NCBI GenBank assembly: GCA_946402705.1
Contig: CAMIXG010000001.1
Span: forward strand, 1 to 64,000
DNA from: an uncultured Tissierellia bacterium
Lineage (GTDB): Bacteria; Bacillota; Clostridia; Tissierellales; Tissierellaceae
Length of the DNA stretch: 64,000 nucleotides
Direction: 5' to 3'
Shown: piece by piece, positions 29,220 to 43,713 of the stretch
Layout of the letters: each line of letters begins with the position of its first letter
Position numbering within the stretch: position 1 is the stretch's first letter
Position numbers and translations under genes: made by a program
The notes under the pieces: model-generated
Seen by the model: the letters and a program-made list of their open reading frames with translations, nothing else
What the model was told of the DNA's origin: nothing
Database searches by the model: none

Positions 29220-30212
29220 TTGTCTGAAGTAATGTCACAGAGCGAAATAGATGCCCTTCTTAATGCTGTTAGCTCAGGAGAACTAGATGTAGAGGAAATA
29301 AAGGAAGATGACAAGAACAAGAAAGTAAAAAAATATGACTTTAGAAATCCGCAAAAAATTTCAAAGGATCAGCTTAGAACTTTACAAGTGATACATGAAA
29401 ATTTTGGAAGATATATGCAGACCTTTTTAACAGGTTATTTGAGAACTAATGTAAATACAGAAATATTAACAGTGGATCAATTTGCCTATAGTGAATTTAG
29501 TAATGCTGTATCAACACCAGCCTTTTTAGCAATAGTTGATTTTTCACCATTAAATGGGGAAATACTAATGGAATTATCCAATAATATAATTTATACTATA
29601 ATAGATAGATTGTTAGGAGGAGATGGTAAATCTAAGGCGGAAGTGAGATCTCTTACAGAAATAGAACTAAGTTTGCTAACAAACATGATGGAAAAACTTA
29701 TTTTAGACTTAAGAGCTGCTTGGGAAAATGTTATAGACCTAGATCCTCATTTAGTTAAGATTGAAACTAATCCACAGTTTGCACAAATTGTAGCTCCTAG
29801 TGAGACAATAGCACTTATAACTATGAATTTAGAGATAGGTCAAACAGAAGGTATGCTAAATATATGTATTCCATATATTTTACTAGAACCTGTAATGAAC
29901 AAACTAAATACCAAGTTCTGGTTCTCGTCTAGCAGAAAAGAAAAAACATCTGGAGATAGAGATAAAATAAAAAATAGAATATTAAATACAATAATACCAG
30001 TGGTGGCTGAACTTGGAAAGACTAAGATAACTATTAATGATATAAGAAATTTAGAAGCAGGAGATATCTTGAAACTAGATAGTCAATCAAGCGAAATAGG
30101 TCTTAGAATAGGAAGCAATGTTAAGTTTACTGGTGAAATGGGACAGAAAAATAAAAAAATAGCAATTAAGATAAATAAAGTTATAGAGGAAGGTGAAGAG
30201 GCAAATGACTGA
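29220..30212 (+). CDS. fliM: Flagellar motor switch protein FliM
   Basis: C-ring component that binds CheY-P. It has 330 residues. The N-terminal CheY-binding peptide is MSQSEIDALLNAV. The CheC-like middle domain runs from about 45 to 225 and the C-terminal SpoA/FliN-like domain has INDIRNLEAGDILKLD. TTG start after AAGGAGGGG. It overlaps fliY by 8 bp. Confidence 0.97.
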   Translation: MSEVMSQSEIDALLNAVSSGELDVEEIKEDDKNKKVKKYDFRNPQKISKDQLRTLQVIHENFGRYMQTFLTGYLRTNVNTEILTVDQFAYSEFSNAVSTPAFLAIVDFSPLNGEILMELSNNIIYTIIDRLLGGDGKSKAEVRSLTEIELSLLTNMMEKLILDLRAAWENVIDLDPHLVKIETNPQFAQIVAPSETIALITMNLEIGQTEGMLNICIPYILLEPVMNKLNTKFWFSSSRKEKTSGDRDKIKNRILNTIIPVVAELGKTKITINDIRNLEAGDILKLDSQSSEIGLRIGSNVKFTGEMGQKNKKIAIKINKVIEEGEEAND

Positions 30213-31398
30213 TGATATACTATCTCAAGAAGAGCTTGATGCACTTCTTAAAAATGCAGTTGGTGAAACTAGTGATGTAGAATCTGATGATAGTGAAGAA
30301 AAAGCTCTTACAGATATGGAAAAAGATACACTGGGAGAAATTGGAAATATAAGCATGGGGACAGCAGCAACAACATTATCAACTTTGCTTGGTAAAAAAG
30401 TTGATATAACTACTCCAACAGTAGAGGTTACAAACTCTGATGAGTTGGCAAGTTTTTATAAGACTCCTTTAGTAGCAGTAGATGTTAAATATAAAGAAGG
30501 TCTAGAAGGTTCTAATATAATGATACTTAGGACTGATGATGTAAAGGTTATAACAGACCTAATGATGGGAAGAGATGAAGTAGATTTAGAAAGAGACTTA
30601 ACAGATTTAGACTTAAGTGCAGTAAGTGAAGCTATGAATCAAATGATGGGCTCATCTTCAACATCTTTATCTGAAATGTTAGGTATGAGAATAGATATAC
30701 TTCCACCAGAATCTAAAAAAGTTACTTTAGAAGAAGGTAAAAAAACTATTGATATTTTAAAAGGTAGTAAAGATTTAATCAAAATATCTTTTAAAATGGT
30801 AATAGAAGATTATTTGGATAGTAATATTCTTCAAATAATTCCATTGGACTTTGGAAAAGAAATGGTTCAAAGAATAATAGGGATTTATTCTTCAGGAAGT
30901 GATACTCCAGTAGAAGTAAAAGAGGAACAAAAACCTGAAGAAAAACCAGTAGCAAAACAAGAAGTTCAAAAACCAGTAGCACAAGAGCCTGTTGTAGAAT
31001 ATACAGTTGAAACTAATAGTAATGTTGATAGAAGACAGGAAATGAATTATAATAACAATGTAAATAATACTGTGAAAGCAACTCAACCAGTAGAAGTTCA
31101 AAGACCAACTATACCAAGTTTTGATAATATAGGGTCTTCAACTAATGGGGGAACTATAGATTTAGTAAGCGATATACCAGTTGAAATAACAGTTGAACTT
31201 GGAAGAACTCACAAAAAAATAGATGAAATATTAGAGTTTGGAGTAGGAACTGTTGTAGAATTAGATAAACTAGTAGGAGAACCTTTAAATCTATTTGCAA
31301 ATGGTAGATACATTGCTAGTGGAGAAGTTGTTGTTATAGATGATAATTTTGGTATTAGGGTAACAGAAATAGATACAAATAAACAAAAGATGATTTAA
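30205..31398 (+). CDS. fliY: Flagellar switch/CheY-P phosphatase FliY
   Basis: C-ring protein that also dephosphorylates CheY-P. It has 397 residues. The N-terminal peptide is LSQEELDALLKNAVG. Two CheC-type phosphatase motifs follow: EKDTLGEIGNISMGTAATTL and LSAVSEAMNQMMGSSSTSL. A Pro/Glu/Val-rich linker then leads to the FliN domain (VEITVELGRTHKKIDEIL, LVGEPLNLFANGRYIASGEVV). The ATG at 30205 is chosen over an upstream codon in the fliM end. The phosphatase call rests on the E-x2-N motifs. Confidence 0.95.
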   Translation: MTDDILSQEELDALLKNAVGETSDVESDDSEEKALTDMEKDTLGEIGNISMGTAATTLSTLLGKKVDITTPTVEVTNSDELASFYKTPLVAVDVKYKEGLEGSNIMILRTDDVKVITDLMMGRDEVDLERDLTDLDLSAVSEAMNQMMGSSSTSLSEMLGMRIDILPPESKKVTLEEGKKTIDILKGSKDLIKISFKMVIEDYLDSNILQIIPLDFGKEMVQRIIGIYSSGSDTPVEVKEEQKPEEKPVAKQEVQKPVAQEPVVEYTVETNSNVDRRQEMNYNNNVNNTVKATQPVEVQRPTIPSFDNIGSSTNGGTIDLVSDIPVEITVELGRTHKKIDEILEFGVGTVVELDKLVGEPLNLFANGRYIASGEVVVIDDNFGIRVTEIDTNKQKMI

Positions 31399-31418: not shown

Positions 31419-31781
31419 ATGGCAAATGGAATATTAGTTGTAGATGATGCATCGTTTATGAGAATGATGGTTAAGGATATATTAACAAAAAATAATTATG
31501 AAGTAGTTGGAGAGGCTGAAAATGGTCTAGAAGCAGTAGAAAAATATAAAGAATTAAGTCCAGCTTTAGTAATAATGGATATAACTATGCCTGAAATGGA
31601 TGGTATAGAAGCAGTTAGAGAAATCAAAAAGGAAAATCCTAGTGCAGCTATAATAATGTGTTCTGCTATGGGACAACAAGCAATGGTAATTGAAGCTATA
31701 CAAGCAGGAGCAAAAGACTTTATAGTTAAACCATTCCAACCAGAAAGAGTTTTAGAAGCAGTTGCAAAGGCTTTAAGTTAA
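31419..31781 (+). CDS. cheY: Chemotaxis response regulator CheY
   Basis: Single-domain receiver that carries the signal from CheA to the switch. It has 120 residues. Acidic pair D9-D10 (LVVDDASFMR), phospho-acceptor D54 (VIMDITMPEMDG), the switch serine in IIMCSAMGQ and the lysine in FIVKPFQ are all intact. Its position after fliY is the usual fla/che order. Confidence 0.97.
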   Translation: MANGILVVDDASFMRMMVKDILTKNNYEVVGEAENGLEAVEKYKELSPALVIMDITMPEMDGIEAVREIKKENPSAAIIMCSAMGQQAMVIEAIQAGAKDFIVKPFQPERVLEAVAKALS

Positions 31782-38264: not shown

Positions 38265-39161
38265 ATGGATCAAGCTAAAAAACTTAGGGAAATAATGGAT
38301 GGACTTAATAAAAAACATGAAAATTCAGCTCAAGAAGTAACTGAAACTTATGAAAACATAAACAAGGGAAAGGTTATATCTGTATCCAGTGGGAAGGGTG
38401 GAGTTGGAAAAACAAATTTTGCTTTAAATTTATCAATTGCATTGAAGAAAAGTGGGTATAAGGTAATTGTTCTTGATGCAGATATAGGACTTGGAAATAT
38501 TGAAATCCTATCTGGTATAAGTGTCTCTGGAAGTATCTTAGATATTATAGAAAAGAATAAAACCATAGAAGAAATAATAAGTACAGGCCCTGGAGGTATT
38601 CATATCATATCAGGAGGATCTGGACTTAAGGAACTGACTTTAACAAATAAATATAATCTTAGCATAATCTTACAAGAGCTAGTTAAATTACAGGAAAAAT
38701 ATGATTATATAGTTATAGATACGGGTGCAGGAATATCAGATGCAGTTTTGGATTTTGCCCTAGCTGCAGATGAAACATTGGTAGTTGGAACACCAGACCC
38801 AACAGCCATAATGGATGCCTATGTATTAATAAAGTCTCTTAAGATAAAAGGTTATGAAGGAAGAATAAAATTAGTCGTGAATATGGTTAAAAATAGTAAA
38901 GAAGGTTTAGATACATATTCAAGAATTAATGGGGTTGTTTCAGAATTTTTAAAAATGGATATTGATTACCTAGGCTCTATAAATAAAGATGAACTAGTTA
39001 CAAAATCTATTAGGATGCAAACACCATTTTTAATTGGATATCCAAATAAAAAAGTATCATTACAGGTTATAGATATAATGAATAACCTGATTAAAGATAG
39101 AGATGAAGACATACAGGGAGAAGGTTTTGCTAAAAAACTTATGAAGTTCTTCATGTCATAA
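38265..39161 (+). CDS. flhG: MinD-like ATPase FlhG (YlxH)
   Basis: Partner of FlhF that controls flagellum number. It has 298 residues. The N-terminal activator helix DQAKKLR at 2-8 is the motif known to stimulate FlhF GTPase activity. Deviant Walker A SGKGGVGKT is at 42-50, with the MinD-type DADIGLGNIEILSG following. The C-terminus has an amphipathic, membrane-binding-type end (GEGFAKKLMKFFMS). Confidence 0.96.
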   Translation: MDQAKKLREIMDGLNKKHENSAQEVTETYENINKGKVISVSSGKGGVGKTNFALNLSIALKKSGYKVIVLDADIGLGNIEILSGISVSGSILDIIEKNKTIEEIISTGPGGIHIISGGSGLKELTLTNKYNLSIILQELVKLQEKYDYIVIDTGAGISDAVLDFALAADETLVVGTPDPTAIMDAYVLIKSLKIKGYEGRIKLVVNMVKNSKEGLDTYSRINGVVSEFLKMDIDYLGSINKDELVTKSIRMQTPFLIGYPNKKVSLQVIDIMNNLIKDRDEDIQGEGFAKKLMKFFMS

Positions 39162-39189
39162 GAAGAAAAACAAAGACTAGGTGAGATAA

Positions 39190-40113
39190 ATGTTAAAGGT
39201 AGTAATAATAGACAATACTTTAAGAAATAAAGCTTTATATGAAAAGATATTTAATTTGGATAGAGATGTAGAATTAGTAGATGTTGTAGATAACTTTAAT
39301 GATTTAAAAGTAGTATTATCTACTAAAAAAGTTGAACTATTAGCCATAAACTCTAATTTAATTCCCAATGATGAGATGATTAGATTTAAAGAGATATCTA
39401 AAGAATTTTCTTTAAATTTAATGATATTAAACAGTAGAATAACTTTTAATGAAGAAGAAAAAGTAAAGGAACAATTACAAAAGGTAAAAGAATATTTTTA
39501 CGGAGAATGTTCCATAATAAATGAAGATAATATAGTAGCTATAGCAAGTTCAACTGGAGGACCAAAGGCGTTACAGGAGATAATTCCTAAACTTCCAAGT
39601 AGTCTTAATGCCATAGTACTTATTGTTCAGCATATGCCAGCGAGTTTTACTGCGGGATTTGCAGAGAGGCTTAATTCGATTTCAGCCATTTCGGTAAAAG
39701 AAGCTGTAAATGGTGAGAAACTTATAAATGGGACAGCTTATATTGCCCCTGGTGATTATCATATGCTTATAAAAGAGAAAAATGGAGACCTATTTGTAGA
39801 ACTGACAAAGGGTGAAAAATATAAGGGTGTAAGACCTGCAGCAGATATACTTATGGAATCTGTTTCAGGGATAAATAAATATAAGAAAATGGGTATAGTT
39901 TTAACTGGTATGGGTTCTGATGGAGCAGTAGGCATAGAATCCCTGAAAAAAACTGGTGCTCATAATATAGCACAAGATGAAAAAACGTCAACAATATTTG
40001 GCATGCCAAAGGCAGCTATTGATACTGGATGCATAGATGAGGTATTGCCGCTTGAAAATATATGGAGAAATATAATATTAAAGGTAGGGTGTAAAAATGG
40101 ATATAGATATTAA
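39190..40113 (+). CDS. cheB: CheB-type methylesterase with degenerate receiver
   Basis: Protein-glutamate methylesterase/deamidase that resets chemoreceptors. It has 307 residues, shorter than the usual ~350. The esterase domain (from about 114) is complete: catalytic S121 in ASSTGGP, H148 in VQHMP and D244 in TGMGSDGA. The N-terminal receiver is eroded. The acidic pair is IIDNT (D8 only), the segment where the phospho-aspartate belongs reads LLAINSNLIP with no Asp, and the Lys-Pro end is missing. It may therefore not be controlled by CheA phosphorylation. It overlaps cheA by 17 bp. Confidence 0.92.
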   Translation: MLKVVIIDNTLRNKALYEKIFNLDRDVELVDVVDNFNDLKVVLSTKKVELLAINSNLIPNDEMIRFKEISKEFSLNLMILNSRITFNEEEKVKEQLQKVKEYFYGECSIINEDNIVAIASSTGGPKALQEIIPKLPSSLNAIVLIVQHMPASFTAGFAERLNSISAISVKEAVNGEKLINGTAYIAPGDYHMLIKEKNGDLFVELTKGEKYKGVRPAADILMESVSGINKYKKMGIVLTGMGSDGAVGIESLKKTGAHNIAQDEKTSTIFGMPKAAIDTGCIDEVLPLENIWRNIILKVGCKNGYRY

Positions 40114-42163
40114 TCAATATTTAAGCATATTTGTAGAGGAGTCTAAAGAACACTTGCAACTTATGAATGATGTTATGCTTGAATTAGAAAAAAATCCTGA
40201 TGACTTAGATCATGTAAATGAAATATTCCGAGTTGCTCATACTTTAAAGGGAATGTCAGGAACAATGGGATTCCAAAATATGGCTACATTGACACATCAG
40301 ATGGAAAATTTACTACAAGCAGTTAGAAGCCATGAAAAAGATTTAACAAATGATATAGTAGATATCCTATTTGAATGTTTTGATGAATTAGAAGCATATG
40401 TAGAACATATTGTAGAAGAGGGTGTAGAACAGGATAGTATCAATAAAGAACTTTTAGCTAAGATAGAAAAGTCTTTAAATGGAGAAGTGGCAGTAGAGAA
40501 AAATGAAACAAAAGAAGAGGTTAAAGCTGAACCTAAAAAAAGTGGACTTGTAGTTGATGAATATGTATTGGACTTAGTGCAAAAAGCTAAGAGTGAATCA
40601 CTTAACATATATGAAATCAAGTTTGTATTAGAAGAAACTACAATGCTAAAGGCTGCTAGAGCCTTTATAATATTTAATGCCTTGGAAGAAGAGGGTGAAA
40701 TAATATTCTCTGAACCAACTACAGAAGATATTGAAGATGAAAAATTTGATAGAGAATTTAGTGTTTTATATGTAACAGTTAAGGATCAGACTAGCTTAGA
40801 AGAAATATTAAACAGTATATCAGAAGTTGAAAAAATAGTAATAAATGAATATAATTTGCCAGAGACACAAGCAGCTGAAAAAGTTGAAACTAAACAAAGG
40901 GCAAAAATAGAAGAAAAAGTTACTACAAAAAAAGCAGAAATAGAGATAAAGCAAGAAACAACTAAGGAAAAGGTAGTTAAACCTAAAGAAAACAATGGTG
41001 GAGCACCTAAGATTGCAAAAACAGTTAGAGTTGATATAGATAGACTTGATAATTTAATGAATCTAGTTAGTGAGCTTATAATAATAAAAACTAGAATGGA
41101 TGGAATAGCAATAGAAAATCAAGTTAAAAATTCTATGACCGAAACTATAGAATATTTAGATAGAATAACATCTAATCTACATGATGCAGTTATGAAGGTT
41201 AGAATGGTACCTATTGAAAGAGTATTTAATAGGTTCCCAAGATTGGTAAGAGATTTATCGAGAGATTTAAATAAAGATATTAAACTAGAAATGTCTGGTG
41301 AAGAAACAGAAGTTGATAGAACTATAATAGATGAGATTGGAGATCCTTTAATCCATTTAATTAGAAATTCTCTTGACCATGGTATAGAACTACCTGAAAA
41401 GAGGGTAGCACTAGGTAAATCTGCTGAAGGAACAGTAATTTTAAAGGCTTATCCAGATGGAAACAATGTAGTTATAGAAGTGGCTGATGATGGTGCTGGT
41501 ATAAATACAGAGATTATAAAGGCTAAGGCTATTGAAAAAGGTATAGCAACAGAAGAAGAAATTAGATATATGAATGATGAAGATGCTGTTATGCTTTTAT
41601 TTAGAGCTGGATTTAGTACAGCTGATACCATATCAGATGTATCTGGTAGAGGCGTTGGGCTAGATGTTGTAAAGAGTAAGATAGAATCTATAAATGGTAG
41701 TATAGAAGTAGATACTAAGATGGGTAAGGGAAGTAAATTTATAATTAGAATTCCTTTAACTCTAGCTATAATACAGGCATTAATGGTTAAACTCGGTGAT
41801 GAAATTTATGCTATACCATTAAATTCTGTAACAGAAATAACAACAATAGAAAAGCAATTAATCAATAAAGTTCAAGGACAAGAAGTTGTTGTATTTAGAG
41901 AAAATACAATACCTGTTGTTAGACTTGGAAAAATACTGGGAGTTAGTGACACTAGAGAAGAAGAAAGTGATGAATATCTAGTTGTAATAGTTAATAAAGG
42001 TGAAAAACAAGCTGGTATAATAGTTGATGAATTAATAGTTCAGCAAGAAATTGTTATAAAATCTTTAGGAAGCTATTTAAACACTATAAAACATATGTCG
42101 GGTGCAACTATTTTAGGAGATGGAAGTATATCCTTAATAGTAGATGTTAACTCTTTGATATAG
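40097..42163 (+). CDS. cheA: Chemotaxis histidine kinase CheA
   Basis: Central kinase of chemotaxis, 688 residues. P1 carries the phosphorylated H48 in FRVAHTLKGMSG. A P2-like CheY/CheB-docking domain follows (about 155-265), then a linker, P3 dimer helices and P4 ATPase with LIRNSLDHGIE, DDGAGI and GRGVGLDVVKSKI. P5 (from about 550) is the CheW-like coupling domain. All key residues appear intact. Confidence 0.97.
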   Translation: MDIDINQYLSIFVEESKEHLQLMNDVMLELEKNPDDLDHVNEIFRVAHTLKGMSGTMGFQNMATLTHQMENLLQAVRSHEKDLTNDIVDILFECFDELEAYVEHIVEEGVEQDSINKELLAKIEKSLNGEVAVEKNETKEEVKAEPKKSGLVVDEYVLDLVQKAKSESLNIYEIKFVLEETTMLKAARAFIIFNALEEEGEIIFSEPTTEDIEDEKFDREFSVLYVTVKDQTSLEEILNSISEVEKIVINEYNLPETQAAEKVETKQRAKIEEKVTTKKAEIEIKQETTKEKVVKPKENNGGAPKIAKTVRVDIDRLDNLMNLVSELIIIKTRMDGIAIENQVKNSMTETIEYLDRITSNLHDAVMKVRMVPIERVFNRFPRLVRDLSRDLNKDIKLEMSGEETEVDRTIIDEIGDPLIHLIRNSLDHGIELPEKRVALGKSAEGTVILKAYPDGNNVVIEVADDGAGINTEIIKAKAIEKGIATEEEIRYMNDEDAVMLLFRAGFSTADTISDVSGRGVGLDVVKSKIESINGSIEVDTKMGKGSKFIIRIPLTLAIIQALMVKLGDEIYAIPLNSVTEITTIEKQLINKVQGQEVVVFRENTIPVVRLGKILGVSDTREEESDEYLVVIVNKGEKQAGIIVDELIVQQEIVIKSLGSYLNTIKHMSGATILGDGSISLIVDVNSLI

Positions 42164-42170
42164 GGGGTCT

Positions 42171-42602
42171 ATGATGGATAGTAGAGATAATATGTATGTA
42201 ACATTTAAATTAGATGAGGAGTATTGTGCTTTTCCAATTGAAAATGTTATATCAATAGAAAAAATACAAGCTAGAACTAGAGTACCAAATTCACCAAATT
42301 TTTTAGAAGGTGTTATAAATCTAAGAGGAGATGTGATAGCACTTATAAATCTTAGAAAAAAATTAGGGATACCAGAAATTCCTCTAGATAAAGATACTAG
42401 AGTTATAATAGTAAATTGTGGAGATATAGCAGCAGGTATAATAGTTGATGCTTCATCAGAAGTTATGGAAATAGATGACTCAAAAATAGATGATGCTCAG
42501 CTTACAGAAGAAAATAAAAACCACAATTATATAAAGGGAATTGGAAAGACTGATACAGGTATTATTACGATTTTAAAAGTGGAAGAAATTTTTAAAAATT
42601 AA
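42171..42602 (+). CDS. cheW: Chemotaxis coupling protein CheW
   Basis: Adapter joining receptors and CheA. It has 143 residues. MYVTFKLDEEYCAFPIENVISIEKIQ, then VPNSPNFLEGVINLRGDVIALINLRKKLG are canonical. A second ATG directly follows the first. AGGGGG precedes the start. Confidence 0.96.
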   Translation: MMDSRDNMYVTFKLDEEYCAFPIENVISIEKIQARTRVPNSPNFLEGVINLRGDVIALINLRKKLGIPEIPLDKDTRVIIVNCGDIAAGIIVDASSEVMEIDDSKIDDAQLTEENKNHNYIKGIGKTDTGIITILKVEEIFKN

Positions 42603-42614
42603 AGGGTGAAAGTC

Positions 42615-43223
42615 GTGCGTATTATAAAAGAAGATGATTATTCGTTAGATGTTTTAAAAGAAGTTAGTAATATAGGTGCAGGTAATGCAGTTACAGCATT
42701 ATCTAAGATGATATCTGGAAAAATATCTATGGATGTTCCAGATATTAAGGTGTTAGATTTTAATGAAGTTGCAGAAGTGCTTGGTGGAGAAGAGCAAATA
42801 ATAGTTGGAATCTATATAGGATTTGAAGAAGACTTACAGGGTAATATGATGTTTGCCTTGGATTTAGATTCAGCTCAAAACTTAAGTAAATTATTATATC
42901 CTAGAGAAAGAGATAGTGATGAATTTGATGATATGGATGTTTCAGTATTATCAGAAGTTGGTAATATCTTAGCATCTTCTTATGTAAATTCTTTATCAAC
43001 ACTTACAAATCTTAAAATAGCAATAACGATTCCTTCATTGGCAGTTGATATGGCGGGTGCAATATTGTCTGTACCAGCTATACAATTTGGTATGATATCA
43101 GATAAGGCGCTAATGATAGAAACAATGTTTTCGCAAGATGAAGACTCTGTTAGTGGTAAATTCTTTTTATTACCAGATTTGGAATCTTATGATAAATTAC
43201 TAAATGCGTTAGGAGTAATATAG
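42615..43223 (+). CDS. cheC: CheY-P phosphatase CheC
   Basis: Dephosphorylates CheY-P and binds CheD. It has about 202 residues. Two phosphatase motifs are present: LKEVSNIGAGNAVTALSKM (E16, N19) and VLSEVGNILASSYVNSLSTL. GTG at 42615 is preferred, five bases after AAAGGGTGA; a GTG at 42606 is inside that site. cheD starts 2 bp downstream, and the two proteins act together. Confidence 0.95.
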   Translation: MRIIKEDDYSLDVLKEVSNIGAGNAVTALSKMISGKISMDVPDIKVLDFNEVAEVLGGEEQIIVGIYIGFEEDLQGNMMFALDLDSAQNLSKLLYPRERDSDEFDDMDVSVLSEVGNILASSYVNSLSTLTNLKIAITIPSLAVDMAGAILSVPAIQFGMISDKALMIETMFSQDEDSVSGKFFLLPDLESYDKLLNALGVI

Positions 43224-43224
43224 T

Positions 43225-43713
43225 ATGATAGATGATATCGTTAAAGTAGGAATGGCTGATTTAAATACTGCCAAACCACCAATGAAGCTAAGAACTCTAG
43301 GTTTAGGTTCATGTGTGGGTATAATCTTATATGATAACAAACTAAAGGTAGGAGGACTTGCCCATGCAATGCTTCCTTCTAGCTTAGAGCTTAAGGACAA
43401 TAAAAATAGAGCTAAGTTTGTAGATACAAGTATAGATCAGCTTATATCAGATATGAAGGAAAAAGGAGCTAATGTGAACAACTTGGTTGCTAAACTTGCA
43501 GGAGGAGCTCAAATGTTTAAATTTACTTCAAATAGTGAGATTCTAAACATAGGGGAAAGAAATGCTAAGGCAGCTAGGGAAAAATTAAGTTCTCTAAATA
43601 TAAAATTAATAGCAGAAGATACTGGAGGAAACTTTGGTAGGACTATAACATTTAATCCAGAAGACGGAACACTACATGTGAGAACAGTAGGACATGGAGA
43701 AAAAACAATTTAA
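43225..43713 (+). CDS. cheD: Chemoreceptor glutamine deamidase CheD
   Basis: Deamidates receptors and, when bound by CheC, helps adaptation. It has 162 residues. The catalytic pair is visible: C30 in LGLGSCVGIILYD and H47 in GGLAHAML. KLAGGAQMF and the C-terminal TGGNFGRTITF support the family. The start follows AGGAG. Confidence 0.95.
   Translation: MIDDIVKVGMADLNTAKPPMKLRTLGLGSCVGIILYDNKLKVGGLAHAMLPSSLELKDNKNRAKFVDTSIDQLISDMKEKGANVNNLVAKLAGGAQMFKFTSNSEILNIGERNAKAAREKLSSLNIKLIAEDTGGNFGRTITFNPEDGTLHVRTVGHGEKTI

Follow-up and report, generated by a model that had tools for sequence, protein, structure and literature searches.

Textbooks describe a feedback loop in which CheA phosphorylates CheB. 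The stretch of DNA that we have analyzed (the window, 64,000 nucleotides of a contig from an uncultured Tissierellia bacterium, genome G000) carries a cheB gene in which the N-terminal half hardly reads as a working receiver. Hence the questions of what this half is, whether CheA could still act on the enzyme and how the cell would adapt if it could not. The gene order is cheB-cheA-cheW-cheC-cheD behind flagellar genes, and the window contains the following parts of the pathway:

30193..31398, + strand: fliY-like gene (open reading frame, named from its sequence).
31419..31781, + strand: cheY, with D9, D10, D54 and the KP pair (Lys 104) intact (direct reading).
38265..39161, + strand: flhG/minD-type gene directly upstream of cheB.
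39190..40113, + strand: cheB, 307 aa, a pseudo-receiver remnant plus an intact methylesterase domain (open reading frame, PF01339).
40097..42163, + strand: cheA, with Hpt (H48), P2, kinase and CheW-like domains (Pfam).
42171..42602, + strand: cheW (Pfam).
42606..43223, + strand: cheC (Pfam).
43225..43713, + strand: cheD (Pfam).

The preliminary description had taken CheY (D54) and CheA (H48) as intact, and both are, CheY by D9, D10, D54 and Lys 104 and CheA by H48, the P2 domain and the kinase motifs. The genome, 87% complete, contains one CheB, one CheR and ten MCPs, several of the latter with methylation-type E/Q motifs located ~93-107 residues ahead of the hairpin; the ~13% not covered by the assembly might hold a second, canonical CheB. 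CheA and CheW are the only CheW-domain proteins in this 87%-complete genome, and no CheV was found in it. Six MCP genes, ~2 kb apart, form a tandem array at another locus of the genome (L107, G000:C12:9000-28000).

The cheB frame (39190-40113, + strand) starts with ATG and codes for 307 aa. PF01339 (CheB_methylest, Pfam) covers residues 116-294 with an E value of 6.1e-62 and 208.9 bits against a cut-off of 24, phmmer matched CheB catalytic domains among PDB chains from residue 108-116 onwards, and the alignments to NCBIfam CheB models begin no earlier than residue 95. A Foldseek search with the full model retrieved CheB structures, 3sft with a TM score of 0.92 on the target and an rmsd of 1.9. 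The catalytic residues S121, H148 and D244, already proposed in the preliminary description, fall on S164, H190 and D286 of the Salmonella enzyme, whose numbers were obtained by counting through the phmmer alignment to 1chd:

39535..40071, + strand: CheB methylesterase domain, residues 116-294 (PF01339, Foldseek to 3sft).
39550..39552, + strand: S121, catalytic, equivalent to Salmonella S164 (phmmer alignment to 1chd).
39631..39633, + strand: H148, catalytic, equivalent to Salmonella H190 (phmmer alignment to 1chd).
39919..39921, + strand: D244, catalytic, equivalent to Salmonella D286 (phmmer alignment to 1chd).

Judged by its domain, its Ser-His-Asp triad and its chemotaxis gene context, the product is a CheB methylesterase with a predicted activity on receptors.

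The N-terminal half is very different. Direct reading of residues 8, 9, 54, 81, 121, 122, 148 and 244 gave D, N, N, N, S, T, H and D, so that only D8 is left of the five switch residues (DD, D, S/T, K), with Asn at the Ser/Thr position 81. The main features are listed here together with the state in G006, a genome of the same family but of a different genus:

39190..39525, + strand: N-terminal receiver remnant, residues 1-112, predicted (beta-alpha)4 (hhalign, AlphaFold, Foldseek).
39214..39216, + strand: codon 9, AAT (Asn), where the metal site has lost its second acidic residue; G006 and canonical relatives have Asp.
39349..39351, + strand: codon 54, AAC (Asn), replaces the phosphoacceptor Asp; also AAC (Asn) in G006.
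39442..39462, + strand: residues 85-91 (approximate), site of the missing alpha4-beta5 and conserved Lys compared with canonical CheB (MAFFT, AlphaFold).

These losses had been suspected from the reading of the sequence, and the comparison bears them out. The acidic pair is reduced (IIDNT), with D8 kept and Asn at position 9. The acceptor Asp is gone from LLAINSNLIP, and here the description can be refined to a clean D54N common to both genomes, the conserved LDIEMP block of canonical CheBs of the same order being INSNLIP in the MAFFT alignment. Finally, the last beta-strand and Lys-Pro segment are missing and the linker is short: the alignment to these canonical CheBs has a gap at canonical residues ~85-112 (alpha4, beta5 and Lys-Pro, GAVDFIxKP) that also takes most of the linker, and the AlphaFold model is devoid of beta5.

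No receiver family was detected by Pfam at E<=1, either with the whole protein or with its N-terminal 117 aa. A profile of the two remnant sequences was nevertheless aligned by hhalign to canonical CheB receivers (probability 96%, E 2.6e-9) from beta1 to beta4, with N54 on D54. AlphaFold, run on shallow alignments (3 and 2 rows), predicted beta1 at 2-7, alpha1 at 11-22, beta2 at 27-33, alpha2 at 36-45, beta3 at 50-54, alpha3 at 60-72, beta4 at 76-80 and a long helix at 86-104, with pLDDT of 80-94 across much of the remnant. The model is not a complete (beta-alpha)5 fold: it has four strands and no beta5, and the long final helix leads to the catalytic domain at 114. Foldseek with the N-terminal model gave mostly receiver domains as top matches, including the Thermotoga CheB receiver 3t8y, all of them weak (E 2e-3 or worse). 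An Asp at the acceptor site, which would have contradicted the preliminary description, was looked for; hhalign puts Asn there, and so does AlphaFold, with residue 54 at the end of beta3. By profile alignment and predicted fold, the N-terminus appears to derive from a receiver. Without the DD, D, S/T and K set, it is not that of a canonical phosphorylation-controlled CheB, nor is the protein a receiver-less CheB of the Campylobacter F3 type, since a receiver-derived remnant of ~112 aa is present. With N9, N54, N81 and no Lys it corresponds to the pseudo-receivers or aspartate-less receivers, defined as lacking one or more of the five residues or the acceptor Asp (PMC12632262).

A canonical cheB spoiled by misassembly or by sequencing errors would be another explanation, and the assembly does consist of 32 contigs and is 87% complete. 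Against this, the frame is open and separated from flhG by only 28 bp, and the independent genome G006 has the same architecture, the same D54N and the same deletion, so that we consider the chance of such an error practically negligible. The survey of close relatives suggested in the preliminary description thus located the same loss in a second genus, and for this reason the loss is old and fixed rather than an assembly defect. The G006 CheB has 310 aa, is 46% identical over its full length and occupies the same operon position; it keeps D9, has N54 (codon AAC) and is without alpha4-beta5 and most of the linker. One more feature is common to both loci:

40097..40113, + strand: the final 17 bp of cheB, which overlap the beginning of cheA; overlap and KNG(Y/F)RY tail shared with G006.

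In the tree of the catalytic domains both proteins are sisters (SH-aLRT 94, by a quick method). Their catalytic domains are 60% identical and their receivers only 21%; canonical pairs with 60-65% identity in the catalytic domain had receivers 64+/-5.6% identical, with a minimum of 45% (444 pairs). G006 has two more CheB-domain genes; one stands alone, the other is fused to CheR, and both are without an N-terminal receiver.

We have examined 249 genomes of the order, 97 of them with CheB. Not one of the ~79 other full-length CheBs read had lost the switch residues; all keep DD and the acceptor Asp. As none of these proteins with a recognizable receiver has lost the acceptor, D54N is not due to chance. 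In six more cases the receiver is wholly absent, at the flhG...cheA locus in G067, G239 and G229, in a cheD-cheB-cheR cluster in G005 and in cheR-cheB clusters in G205 and G210. The genus mates of G229 possess receivers. A receiver hidden upstream in another frame was ruled out, tblastn with canonical receivers giving no match in any frame upstream of the receiver-less loci. In G239 (L092, G239:C91, 1872-2558) the first strand stub MKVLMVDDS is followed directly by linker and catalytic domain, i.e., a near-complete in-frame deletion of the receiver. Parsimony on the CheB tree gave seven changes, G000 and G006 counted once and G220, with a gene that reaches the end of its contig, excluded. By this sequence-based count, the CheB receiver has been lost independently at least seven times in the order, the state in the two genera being one of these cases, and therefore the feedback through this switch appears to be dispensable there.

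A class-wide sample (393 genomes) contained further short CheB frames; eight of the nine read have unrelated short N-termini and the ninth is truncated at the end of its contig. Among the matches listed and these nine frames we saw no further partial receiver. The receiver-free CheBs have no clear parallel signal on the catalytic surface, only scattered changes at residues 156-158, and a nucleotide-pattern scan of genome contigs retrieved one distant canonical CheB only.

Some other observations were made along the way. A contig of a viral collection (L153, 1941-2561) carries a stand-alone CheB catalytic domain adjoining a ParA-like gene. At L101 (G002:C21:335500-338800) a cheB with a canonical receiver is split over two frames in its catalytic domain, by a frameshift or a sequencing error. 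Four genomes of a genus of the same family (g12: G011, G018, G024 and G027) have no CheB domain. A PilZ (YcgR-like) gene is located directly upstream of cheB in G003, G008, G019, G239, G229 and, by sequence only, G002; none is found between flhG and cheB here (39161-39190) or at the G006 locus, and no PilZ domain was found in the 87%-complete G000 assembly.

What, then, would such a CheB do? It resembles the canonical enzymes (Salmonella 1A2O, Thermotoga 3SFT/3T8Y, Pectobacterium 6YMZ) in methylesterase fold, triad, chemotaxis-operon position and receiver-derived N-terminus, and differs from them by its short linker and by the lack of the acceptor Asp, the second acidic residue, the Lys and alpha4-beta5. 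We think it likely that the cell has its main chemotaxis CheB here, and that the control of this enzyme by CheA has been lost. CheA would be unable to phosphorylate it and, with no full receiver over the active site, the enzyme would be a constitutive methylesterase/deamidase and behave like the CheB catalytic domain on its own. The cell could then adapt via activity-dependent methylation of receptors by CheR and their demethylation by CheB, and the CheC/CheD/CheY-P branch would add feedback alongside the receptor state. The suggestion that demethylation is constitutive or otherwise controlled, with CheC, CheD and FliY carrying the feedback, is reasonable because CheR, CheC, CheD, CheW and receptors with methylation motifs are present and neither CheV nor a second CheB was found in the 87%-complete genome. 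The enzyme is probably constitutively active, unless contacts between the remnant and the catalytic domain persist. Control in trans, in which a stand-alone receiver such as CheY, or CheC or CheD, binds and regulates the enzyme, could be imagined with CheY, CheC and CheD co-encoded; we regard it as improbable, as G006, with the same eroded CheB, and the canonical relatives have comparable operons.

In Escherichia coli phosphorylation activates CheB, and strains with CheBc (no receiver) or CheB-D56E have no phospho-feedback and can still adapt precisely, by means of receptor modification that depends on activity; individual cells then differ more from one another (PMC5809149). The same lack of feedback would apply here, as a natural state rather than in laboratory constructs. 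For pathways of the Bacillus subtilis type, a 2004 paper described the function of phosphorylating CheB as unknown (PMC340952).

If the enzyme has been freed from CheA, the remnant might be a decaying N-terminal module, perhaps still structurally useful. It is quite possible that it has no function left and is carried along only by its position behind the start codon: the receivers of G000 and G006 have lost most of their identity, no good in-frame start is found near the catalytic domain (the G000 ATG codons are at 78 and then at 149), and G239 keeps only its MKVLMVDDS stub. A catalytic-only product from an internal start was ruled out in G000, where no suitable codon lies near the domain border. 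A dead relic is harder to reconcile with a remnant predicted to be folded, and with a divergence that, for a loss older than the split of both lineages, is slower than neutral. At the fourfold-degenerate sites of the catalytic part 32 of 48 differ (0.67, the saturation expectation being 0.65). The remnant pair nonetheless scores 72, against 13-17 in a neutral simulation with at least 1 event per site and lineage, and none of 200 replicates was as high; the simulation used a stop-free stretch of 84 codons and takes the loss to be older than the separation of G000 and G006. The data are matched just as well with ~0.5 events per site under a later loss of constraint in each lineage. The early date is favored by the D54N and the deletion common to both, and a weak residual constraint on the remnant is therefore plausible; being slower than neutral in that case, it may still do something.

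Such a role, a phosphate-independent job in folding, in docking to receptors or kinase, or in binding a ligand or partner that controls the esterase, is possible, if still tentative. Both lineages have kept ~112 in-frame residues whereas relatives deleted the domain, the similarity of the remnants exceeds the neutral simulation although fourfold sites are saturated, and the prediction has the high pLDDT mentioned above. On the other hand, the remnants are only 21% identical, share no new motif beyond the hydrophobic core and N54, and the simulation presumes an early loss and compares two sequences only. The most specific version, a phosphorylation-independent (beta-alpha)4 module maintained for another role in CheB and weakly constrained since a time before the divergence of the two genera, in an order where other lineages have deleted the domain again and again, seems to us rather unlikely.

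Receiver-less CheB and aspartate-less receivers are both already known. CheB of Campylobacter jejuni has no receiver (PMC340952; F3 class, PMC9321776) and, as here, the esterase domain is kept and phosphorylation control is missing; unlike it, our CheB still encodes a degenerate remnant of ~112 residues. Aspartate-less or pseudo-receivers (PMC4395418, PMC12632262), e.g., RitR with Asn53, have likewise changed Asp to Asn at the acceptor and lost other switch residues; unlike them, the remnant is without one strand-helix unit, is missed by Pfam and has CheB as output domain, and the main text of neither paper mentions CheB. In the literature outside subscription we found no CheB with a degenerate receiver remnant fixed in two genera beside repeated full losses. 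The new part is this eroded intermediate and its apparent weak residual constraint. The pair of genera stands between an intact receiver and none, and the repeated natural loss at the main flagellar che locus within a single order, where near relatives keep the loop, provides ready comparisons for finding out what the loop is for.
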